64,000 nucleotides of DNA from positions 248,001 through 312,000 of the forward strand of contig NZ_JPRI01000004.1 in the NCBI RefSeq assembly GCF_000737765.1, written 5' to 3'. A program made the translations under genes and the position numbers. This stretch comes from Chryseobacterium vrystaatense. GTDB lineage: Bacteria; Bacteroidota; Bacteroidia; Flavobacteriales; Weeksellaceae. Each line of letters starts with the position of its first letter. The stretch's first letter is position 1. Positions 51,135 through 54,259 of the stretch are shown piece by piece. The notes under the pieces were generated by a model. That model was given only the letters and a program-made list of their open reading frames with translations, ran no database searches and was not told the origin of the DNA.

Positions 51135-51878
51135 ATGAAAAAAATTCAGAAACTAACAAGAGCACAATTAACTGATCAGATAATGAAGGTTTCGGAAGTA
51201 TTATATACTGCTATTGAACCGGAGTTGGAATTTATGTTCAATAACGAAGATGATCCTGATGAAGACAGCTTTACAGAGTTTCTGGATATGCTGGATCAGG
51301 AAACAGCAGAAAAAATAAAAGAAGCTGCTTTTAATAGGGACAGTGACGATGACGAACCCGAGATCATGCTTATGGAAAATGAAAGCACAACGTCTTTGGA
51401 TGTGGTTACCGAACAAGGTGATGGATATATCGTTATACTTATTGAAAATGATATTAATCTAACCGGGAATCTTTTCATTGAAGACTATGTTACACTTATT
51501 GTAACCGGGGATATAAAAGCCAAAAATATCATCGTCAACGGTTCATTATATTGTTCAGGAAATATTTTCTGTACGGTATTGTTTAGTGCATCTGGTAATG
51601 ATCATCAAACCTATAGCGCGGGAAATATGTATACTTCTCTTATTGCAGAAAACGGTCAGTATACAGTTTCTGAGAGTAAAATATATTCCAGATATCTGAT
51701 GAGCTTCCATAATACAATAAAAGGAAAATCAGGAAGGTTTGTTGAAAATACAGCCCTGGAAAATGGAAATGAAGCGTCTGTTCTGAATCCTGAAATACTT
51801 GATGAAAACGGATTCTTTGATGAAGATGCATTTTTGAATTATATCAATATCCATCAACCTGAATCTTTATTCATATAA
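51135..51878 (+). CDS. Acidic protein with a polymer-forming (bactofilin-like) segment
   Basis: A 247-residue protein. An acidic helical N-terminal part (about 1-95, with SFTEFLDMLDQETAEKIKEA) is followed by a beta-rich middle with short repeats: NLTGNLFIEDYVTLIVTG (about 107-125), DIKAKNIIVNGSLYCSGNIF, and SAGNMYTSLIAENGQYTVSE. The spacing of the 'G.I.A.NI.V.G.' pattern resembles the beta-helix of polymer-forming cytoskeletal proteins. The C-terminus is acidic. I do not recognise a named family; WG-repeat and immunity-type proteins are alternatives. It is monocistronic. Confidence 0.55.
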   Translation: MKKIQKLTRAQLTDQIMKVSEVLYTAIEPELEFMFNNEDDPDEDSFTEFLDMLDQETAEKIKEAAFNRDSDDDEPEIMLMENESTTSLDVVTEQGDGYIVILIENDINLTGNLFIEDYVTLIVTGDIKAKNIIVNGSLYCSGNIFCTVLFSASGNDHQTYSAGNMYTSLIAENGQYTVSESKIYSRYLMSFHNTIKGKSGRFVENTALENGNEASVLNPEILDENGFFDEDAFLNYINIHQPESLFI

Positions 51879-51963: not shown

Positions 51964-52054
51964 TTGCCGCAATCTTTGAAAAGAATTTTTGATACATTTT
52001 GTTACTAAACAACTGAAATTCAAATTCTTAAATTATGATTGAATGTAAATAAAT

Positions 52055-54259
52055 TTGAAAATTTTCCTGTTGAAAGATCTGCTTCTCATCACTCCGCCTT
52101 TTACCCAGCTCAATACTCCTTATCCTGCAACAGCTTATATAAAAGGCTTTTTGAATACCAAAAATATTTCCAGCTATCAGATCGATCTGGGACTTGATGT
52201 TATTTTGGAGTTATTCTCCAAAAACGGGATCCGTAAAATTTTTGAAACAGAAATCAATCTTCAGGAAATCTCTGAAAATTCACAGCGAATTTATGCGCTT
52301 CGTGAAGAATACCTGAAGACGATAGATCAGGTTATTCCATTTCTTCAGGGCAAAACGCCTACCCTTGCAAGGCAGATCTGCAGTATGAATTTCCTTCCCG
52401 AAGCTTCCCGTTTCAATCAGCTGGATGATATGGATTTTGCATTCGGAAACATGGGGCTTCAGGATAAGGCAAAGCATCTTGCTACGTTATATTTAGAGGA
52501 TATTTCTGATTATATCATTGAAAATATTGATTCGGATTTTGGATTCAGCAGGTATGCGGAACGTCTTGGAAAAAGCGCCAATTCTTTTGATGAATTATAT
52601 TCTAAATTATCTGATGATCAGACATTTATTGATAATTTCACATTAGAAATACTCAGAGAAAAATTAGAATCAGTCCAGCCAAAGTTGGTCTGCTTTTCGG
52701 TGCCATTTCCCGGAAATTTATACGCCGGTTTCAAATGTGCTCAATTTATTAAAAAGAATTATCCTCACATTAAAACGGCAATGGGAGGAGGTTTCCCGAA
52801 TACAGAATTAAGGGAAGTAAAAGACCAGAGGGTCTTCGAATTTTTTGATTTTATTACACTTGATGATGGTGAGGTTCCTCTTGAACTTCTTTGCAACAGT
52901 GTATTAAATCCTTCACCTGAAACAGAATACAAAAGGACATTTTTGATTGAGAACCAAAAGGTTACTTATAAAAATAACTCTAAGAAACACGATTATAAAC
53001 AGGCCGACATTGGTACACCGGATTATACAGATCTAAAACTGGATGAGTATATTTCAGTAATTGAGATTGCTAATCCAATGCACAGTTTATGGAGCGATGG
53101 GAGGTGGAATAAACTCACGATGGCTCATGGCTGCTATTGGGGGAAATGTACTTTCTGCGATATTTCTTTAGATTATATCAAAATCTACGAACCTATTTCT
53201 GCAAAAATTCTGGTGGACAGAATGGAAGAACTGATCAGAACAACAGGTGAAACAGGATTCCATTTTGTAGATGAAGCAGCACCACCCGCATTGATGAGGG
53301 AGGTCGCATTGGAAATTCTCCGAAGAAATCTGGTCGTTACCTGGTGGACCAATATCAGATTTGAAAAAAGTTTTACCCGTGATTTATGTTATCTCTTGAA
53401 GCTTTCAGGATGTGTTGCTGTTTCCGGAGGACTTGAAGTGGCCAGCGATCGTTTGTTACAATTAATTGATAAGGGAGTTTCAGTAGAACAGGTTGCCAGA
53501 GTGACAAGGAATTTTACGGAAGCTGGAATTATGGTTCATGCCTATTTGATGTATGGCTATCCGACTCAGACTATTCAGGAAACAGTAGATTCTTTAGAAA
53601 TGGTAAGACAGATGTTTGAAATGGGAATTCTTCAAAGTGGATTCTGGCATCAGTTTGCGATGACAGCTCATTCACCTGTTGGAATCAATCCGGAAGAATT
53701 CGGAGTAACTCCTGTAAAGGAAGAAATTCTGTTTGCGAACAACGATATTGATTTTACCGACAAAACCGGAATCGATCACAGTAAATTCAGTTTCGGATTG
53801 AAAAAATCTCTTTTCAACTATATGCATGGAATCAATTTTGAATTTCCGCTTCAGGAATGGTTTGACTTCAAAATTCCAAGGCCGGCTGTTCACCCTGACT
53901 ATATTCACGACTGTCTTCTGGATGATCCATCATTCAATTTTAAGGGTAACTCAAAAGTTGTATTTTTAACCAAAAACGTAATCGCTGAGAATCGCGTAAA
54001 AAATAAAAAGAAATACTCTGGTCCATATACGCTTCTTACATTCCACTTAAAAACGAACATAATAAAGATCGATTTGGAGCAGAATAAAGCAGAGTGGCTG
54101 ATGAAAGTACTGGAAGAAAATTCCATAGAAAATCCAAAAAAGATTACAGCTCAACAACTTAAGAATCAATTTGAAGAAGATTTTGAAGATTTTGAATTGT
54201 TTTGGTTTTCAAAACCTATACAGCAGCTTAGGGACAATGGTGTCATTTTAAGTCTGTAA
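52055..54259 (+). CDS. B12-binding-type radical SAM protein with a CX4CX2C motif
   Basis: A 734-residue protein. An N-terminal part (about 1-320) has a B12-binding-like Rossmann region: LLITPPFTQLNTPYPATAYI at the start and VCFSVPFPGNLYAGFKCAQF (about 210-229). The radical SAM core follows: HGCYWGKCTFCDISLDYIKI (Cys 360, 365 and 368), giving CX4CX2C instead of CX3CX2C, then VDEAAPPALMREVALEIL and GGLEVASDRLLQLIDKGV. The first codon is TTG at 52055. The reaction is unknown; members with B12 domains often methylate or rearrange carbon skeletons. The gene is monocistronic. Confidence 0.82.
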   Translation: MKIFLLKDLLLITPPFTQLNTPYPATAYIKGFLNTKNISSYQIDLGLDVILELFSKNGIRKIFETEINLQEISENSQRIYALREEYLKTIDQVIPFLQGKTPTLARQICSMNFLPEASRFNQLDDMDFAFGNMGLQDKAKHLATLYLEDISDYIIENIDSDFGFSRYAERLGKSANSFDELYSKLSDDQTFIDNFTLEILREKLESVQPKLVCFSVPFPGNLYAGFKCAQFIKKNYPHIKTAMGGGFPNTELREVKDQRVFEFFDFITLDDGEVPLELLCNSVLNPSPETEYKRTFLIENQKVTYKNNSKKHDYKQADIGTPDYTDLKLDEYISVIEIANPMHSLWSDGRWNKLTMAHGCYWGKCTFCDISLDYIKIYEPISAKILVDRMEELIRTTGETGFHFVDEAAPPALMREVALEILRRNLVVTWWTNIRFEKSFTRDLCYLLKLSGCVAVSGGLEVASDRLLQLIDKGVSVEQVARVTRNFTEAGIMVHAYLMYGYPTQTIQETVDSLEMVRQMFEMGILQSGFWHQFAMTAHSPVGINPEEFGVTPVKEEILFANNDIDFTDKTGIDHSKFSFGLKKSLFNYMHGINFEFPLQEWFDFKIPRPAVHPDYIHDCLLDDPSFNFKGNSKVVFLTKNVIAENRVKNKKKYSGPYTLLTFHLKTNIIKIDLEQNKAEWLMKVLEENSIENPKKITAQQLKNQFEEDFEDFELFWFSKPIQQLRDNGVILSL

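Follow-up and report, generated by a model that had tools for sequence, protein, structure and literature searches.

The window, that is the whole stretch of 64,000 nucleotides that was analysed, carries on its forward strand an open reading frame at positions 52055-54259, which reads as 734 amino acids with TTG as its first codon. An earlier note had described the product as a radical SAM protein whose N-terminal region resembles a B12-binding domain, and both descriptions are borne out, the second by fold. By its sequence, the protein is a member of the radical SAM superfamily: the match to PF04055 (Radical_SAM) reaches 43.4 bits (E 5.4e-11) against a curated cut-off of 29.5, and three clustered cysteines lie inside the matched domain, where TGC TAT TGG GGG AAA TGT ACT TTC TGC reads directly as CYWGKCTFC, i.e. 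CX4CX2C. The N-terminal domain is supported by the fold comparison described below, the PF02310 (B12-binding) profile itself staying under its cut-off (15.3 bits, E 0.018, against 32.1) with its clearest match at residues 200-277 of the 734-residue reading. Since this score is under the cut-off, we call the protein cobalamin-type by fold, without proven membership of the cobalamin-dependent radical SAM enzymes. An Rfam scan of the window gave no match at the gathering threshold, so that no cobalamin riboswitch reached that threshold in the window. The features are collected in Table 1, in which the gene begins at the start codon that is aligned across its relatives. Upstream, positions 51135-51878 of the window hold a gene of 247 amino acids whose Pfam similarities, bactofilin among them, are all below threshold.

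Table 1. Features of the radical SAM gene and of its upstream edge, in window positions.
Feature	Position	Strand	Remarks
Promoter-like -7 box TAAATTTG (TAnnTTTG)	52050..52057	+	12 nt before the TTG start; consensus-based
Coding sequence, radical SAM protein	52070..54259	+	729 aa and stop; TTG start aligned across relatives
N-terminal region, B12-binding-like (Rossmann) domain	52070..53056	+	aa 1-329; PF02310 below cut-off, model aligned with OxsB and TsrM
Radical SAM core domain	53123..53602	+	aa 357-516 of the 734-aa reading; PF04055
Cluster motif CYWGKCTFC (CX4CX2C)	53132..53158	+	direct reading; spacing constant in 130/130 rows
C-terminal domain, modelled as beta3-alpha3, RRE-like	53894..54256	+	AlphaFold2 and VIA-align

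A full-length model was built from 51 aligned sequences; its pLDDT is 71.7, low around the cluster motif, and it is used here with moderate confidence. On this model an N-terminal Rossmann domain is followed by the radical SAM barrel. The structural matches were led by OxsB (Z 16.1, 4.3 Å over 396 residues, model residues 1-604) and TsrM (Z 14.5, residues 1-587), then AprD4 (14.2), CysS (13.6), TokK (13.1) and MgmA (12.8), and the alignments with this group run from model residue 1 or 3 to 587-609. MiaB, NifB, MqnE and other radical SAM rows reached Z 10.8 and lower. A cobalamin-type radical SAM fold is predicted over about residues 1-604, on a model of pLDDT 71.7. OxsB, TsrM, TokK, CysS and AprD4 share domain order and fold with the window protein over about this length (Z 13-16), but with only 10-16% sequence identity in the fold alignments, and the C-terminal domain is unmatched by these solved enzymes, none of the 50 matches listed passing model residue 609.

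Among curated families, the nearest are TIGR03975, the RiPP maturation radical SAM C-methyltransferases (86 bits, E 2e-24, over the B12 and radical SAM domains), and then the P-methyltransferase PhpK (TIGR04479, 75.6 bits). Both scores are far under the respective cut-offs of 281.85 and 600 bits, and the protein is therefore filed under neither. We take PoyB and PoyC to be members of TIGR03975. The PoyC-type motif is CX7CX2C (PMC5682303), in contrast to the CX4CX2C of the window protein, and no RiPP cluster was seen around the window gene, whereas a gene of TIGR03975 would be expected beside a RiPP precursor and RiPP enzymes.

The C-terminal domain, which the earlier note does not mention, was modelled separately with AlphaFold2 (121 residues, 47 sequences, pLDDT 86), which gave strands at residues 29-38, 41-51 and 56-62 and helices at 63-75, 86-93 and 100-104/107-114. 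An RRE/PqqD-like fold had been suspected ahead of the structure search, the definition of the RRE fold being that of PMC12710340. In VIA-align, where Z below 8 is an ambiguous range by the tool's own scale and where a fold family missing from the listed rows is not thereby excluded, the first five rows were ThcOx 8pz5 (Z 7.0), ThcOx 5lq4 (6.8), the PbtF RRE 8t19 (6.7), TruD 4bs9 (5.6) and a chain of McbBCD, 6gri (5.5), i.e. four RiPP enzymes at 3.0-3.1 Å over 78-85 residues, followed by GdmN (Z 5.4 at 5.2-7.5 Å) and then by unrelated rows at 4.1 and lower. The title of 8t19 names the matched part of PbtF as an RRE, and for ThcOx, TruD and 6gri (McbB) we presume that the match likewise falls on the RRE. 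Foldseek alone found no match to the C-terminal domain at E <0.001, Pfam none to that of the window protein and only scattered weak ones among the 47 members, and a PDB sequence search with the C-terminal profile gave nothing credible. With hhalign, 24 PqqD-type sequences (the only type tried, RREs being divergent in sequence) were matched at probabilities of 0.1-2.7%, which is not significant, and a link to PqqD at the sequence level was dropped; under loosened settings, a 63-column alignment to the PqqD type had the register expected for an RRE.

For structure-based mining of RREs, one set showed a false-positive rate of about 75% (PMC12710340), and according to a passage of PMC7470986 the false positives of RRE-Finder include helix-turn-helix domains as well as radical SAM enzymes that lie outside RiPP clusters. 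The C-terminal domain is predicted, from its model, to be RRE-like and of winged-helix type, a candidate peptide holder. Proteusin radical SAM epimerases offer a comparable arrangement, since a section of PMC8326336 describes C-terminal RREs on them, as predicted for the window protein; they belong, however, to another radical SAM family and are RiPP pathway enzymes, and the likeness is one of description only.

The domain could also be a structural or partner-binding module that merely resembles an RRE, which we consider somewhat unlikely. Such a module would suit an enzyme for which the leading fold matches include OxsB, AprD4, CysS and TokK, whose substrates, in part by their entry titles, are small molecules or carrier-bound ones, and for which PhpK is the second-best family; PhpK is also the top NCBIfam row for the relatives L131, L133 and L136, TIGR03975 being that for L128 and L135. 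It would suit, too, the distribution of the domain in an alignment of 130 rows, made of the window protein and 129 relatives, with identities as low as about 42% and with records from two beta-proteobacterial plasmids and one each from Parabacteroides and Aureibacter. The domain is found in 122 of these rows and is missing in eight (five of family f23, the two beta-proteobacterial ones and the Parabacteroides one), and thus the enzyme does not strictly require it. The two beta-proteobacterial rows branch from within domain-bearing members (support 98/93 and 99/93), making a loss likely there. Moreover, no precursor peptide was found nearby. Within 1.3 kb no conserved small ORF was seen that could be a precursor candidate: the small ORFs common to at least four loci are atpC, frames antisense to atpC, or short frames that seem to be fragments of longer genes truncated where the locus ends (checked in L060, with a 2605-aa frame). 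The flanks of L082-L110 are only about 1.5 kb long, so that a more distant precursor would be missed. Against a mere resemblance stand the rank of TIGR03975 as the best family for the window protein and the top five structural rows of the tail, which RRE-bearing RiPP enzymes fill entirely. Among 148 genomes, 16 were hit by the C-terminal profile, 15 of them at the place of the radical SAM gene and one by a short match of E 0.009 (G119); with a single short and weak match elsewhere, these 148 genomes give no evidence of a further protein carrying the domain.

AprD4 is not known to need cobalamin. Its place among the best fold matches (Z 14.2), together with the PF02310 score below the cut-off, would agree with an enzyme that has kept the Rossmann domain and leaves cobalamin unused, SAM cleavage driving a dehydration, a rearrangement or a cross-link instead of a methylation. 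We find this rather improbable, given that OxsB and TsrM, both solved with cobalamin, rank equally or higher. The carrier genomes do not help in this respect. The genome of the window encodes a MetH activation domain, three proteins with a B12-binding domain, one of which is probably the MetH, and one cobalamin adenosyltransferase, and it therefore uses B12. The MetH activation domain (PF02965) is present in 280 of the 296 genomes of the phylum sample, with or without the radical SAM gene; since nearly all relatives use B12 too, B12 use by the host does not discriminate. Four genomes of one genus (G038, G054, G100 and G163) have kept the gene and are missing PF02965. As they keep two other B12-binding proteins above the cut-off and an adenosyltransferase, B12 use was dropped as a discriminator.

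Each of the 98 genomes sampled from the genus has a match to the gene; a few copies seem broken or incomplete, being partial in G297, split over two contigs in G332, and carrying four stops in G355 and one stop each in G344 and G356. Of the 296 genomes in the phylum sample, 56 matched, three of them distantly (26-28% identity), and in genus g3 of that sample the match was complete (17/17). It looks like a core gene within the genus that is patchy over the phylum. On viral contigs, 28 stretches fit a pattern and none of them encodes a relative. Our searches of an open-access library brought up no paper that we recognised as dealing with this protein family, although such papers may exist. The gene had been said to stand alone, and the comparison of neighbourhoods agrees, giving a stand-alone gene without conserved neighbours: atpC and atpD are among the downstream neighbours in most Chryseobacterium loci, neighbours are not conserved between families, and those of the six annotated plasmid-borne relatives that were fetched are unrelated. 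An assignment of function through gene neighbours was dropped, because these change from family to family.

A neighbour cluster, c21, adjoins the gene or is near it in 10 loci, and from one member (L052) we take it to be a tRNA-dihydrouridine synthase. This brings to mind an RNA modification enzyme, acting on tRNA or rRNA, whose C-terminal winged helix would bind RNA. The match in 98 of 98 genus genomes without a cluster is consistent with such a role, as are weak similarities to Elp3 and queuine lyase and, by fold, to MiaB. However, the c21 neighbour is limited to the 10 loci, all Flavobacteriaceae by label, the Z of 10.8 for MiaB is lower than that of most of the cobalamin group, and a distribution of 56 in 296 genomes is patchy; we regard a role in RNA modification as improbable.

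Some loci of relatives deserve a separate mention. One relative, L072, bears the label Flavobacterium johnsoniae. L044 and L059, MAGs labelled Limnohabitans and Nitrotoga, contain copies that share about 70% identity with the window protein, as the Flavobacterium ones do; these are probably mis-binned contigs. The Parabacteroides distasonis record labelled "plasmid 78" (L133) has chromosomal-looking genes, ysxC and others, and its plasmid label may be wrong. At L128:1337-8224, in a genome of the phylum, two radical SAM genes (one of 1014 aa, with CX3CX2C), an aminotransferase-like fusion and an acetyltransferase-like gene, the family names of these neighbours being our presumption, lie close together or overlap in what looks like a biosynthetic cluster. 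On the Sinorhizobium meliloti plasmid pAK76 (L136:5525-10946), the surroundings of a distant relative with GCYWNRCTFC include a flavoprotein, a 2OG-Fe(II) oxygenase and a cupin-like protein.

Our preferred reading, a tentative one, is that of a cobalamin-type radical SAM enzyme which is encoded by a lone core gene and modifies, probably by C-methylation, a peptide or protein encoded elsewhere. The three cysteines, known like the radical SAM domain from the sequence, would ligate a [4Fe-4S] cluster, at which SAM is cleaved to give a 5'-deoxyadenosyl radical, and this radical would activate a carbon of the substrate. From the modelled cobalamin-type fold we infer the use of cobalamin and methyl transfer: the cobalamin, recharged by a second SAM, would give its methyl group to the substrate. 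The RRE-like tail, model-based as well, suggests a peptide substrate; it would bind a stretch of a peptide or protein in the way that leader peptides are bound by RREs, and the gene of that substrate would lie elsewhere in the genome. As antibiotic-like peptides should differ between strains, an internal house-keeping target may be the better match for a core gene. The point of interest is a domain resembling those for peptide recognition on a B12-type radical enzyme, in 98 of 98 genus genomes and with no visible cluster; if confirmed, this would point to a hitherto unrecognised modification of proteins or peptides in common bacteria. It is also conceivable, though unlikely in our judgement, that a core enzyme of Chryseobacterium and related Bacteroidota applies B12 radical chemistry, by way of a RiPP-type recognition domain and free of any biosynthetic cluster, to an ordinary cell protein or an undiscovered core peptide, which if true would be a house-keeping use of RiPP machinery.

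The spacing of the cysteines was the feature that the earlier note had singled out, four residues lying between the first two in place of the canonical three, and it is real. All 130 aligned rows have CX4CX2C in gap-free motif columns and none has CX3CX2C, so that neither a sequencing error nor an effect of the alignment explains it, and both were ruled out as its cause. In addition, GCYWGKCTFC is found in all 80 relatives fetched, which are the best 80 of at least 582 confirmed in the genome scan. Of three distant relatives (about 24-28% identity), L135 and L136 have CX4CX2C and L128 has CX3CX2C. The spacing itself is already known elsewhere and is not new. CX4CX2C is printed for GenD1 and, as worded there, for GenK and Sis14 in a passage of PMC4340712, an excerpt of PMC3087415 names CX3CX2C or CX4CX2C as characteristic of the radical SAM superfamily, and part of PMC8992657 calls exceptions to the cysteine spacing not unusual, CX3CX2C being typical and not defining. 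GenD1 and GenK, of the gentamicin pathway, are described in PMC4340712 as of the cobalamin-radical SAM type, like the window protein by its fold; unlike it, they act on small aminoglycosides and are encoded in a biosynthetic cluster, and they too are likened by description only. In the queuine lyase 6p78, CIWGKCSFC aligns without gaps with CYWGKCTFC of the window protein, the match being confined to query residues 342-493 with an overall E of 0.084, on a chain of 251 residues.

The proposal that this spacing may define a subgroup with its own chemistry is too strong. It marks the family, being constant in 130 of 130 rows, but since the same spacing recurs in distant relatives, in GenD1 and GenK (as printed) and in queuine lyase, it does so without predicting chemistry. 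Despite that constancy, a chemistry of its own set by CX4CX2C is very improbable, as the enzymes sharing it carry out different reactions. The longer cysteine loop would rather be a tolerated variant of the cluster-binding loop than a source of new chemistry, and the cysteine spacing alone is of little interest.

The TTG start had been placed at 52055. The use of TTG stands, whereas its position does not: relatives align from the TTG at 52070 (MKDLLLITPPFTQ), 15 nt later, and codons upstream of 52070 are not conserved, so that 52055 falls in a non-conserved lead-in. At the equivalent position, 122 family members start with TTG (98), ATG (15) or GTG (9). The TTG at 52055-52057 is inside the -7-like box TAAATTTG. 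A TAnnTTTG box ending 6-20 nt before the start was found in 84 of the 122 members (76/98 with TTG, 7/15 with ATG, 1/9 with GTG), against 67/755 ATG, 13/154 TTG and 0/47 GTG control ORFs of the same loci and a mean of 1.2 and maximum of 4 of 122 in shuffled upstream sequences (200 rounds), counts that describe and do not test significance, because the members share ancestry, in some cases closely. Upstream of the family starts, no -33 element is conspicuous.

The consensus of the -7 box and its spacing are those given in sections of PMC6847099, where probable promoters of F. johnsoniae have 4-5 nt from box to transcript start and 87% of the leaders are longer than 10 nt; for F. psychrophilum, part of PMC9723704 gives 5.5% of mapped mRNAs as leaderless. 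From this consensus and the sequence, an mRNA leader of 7-8 nt is predicted ahead of the TTG start. Positions 52050-52072 of the window present a TTG start, conserved across genera, a few bases after a -7-like box, and such a conserved TTG behind a promoter box offers a handle on translation initiation without Shine-Dalgarno in Bacteroidota.
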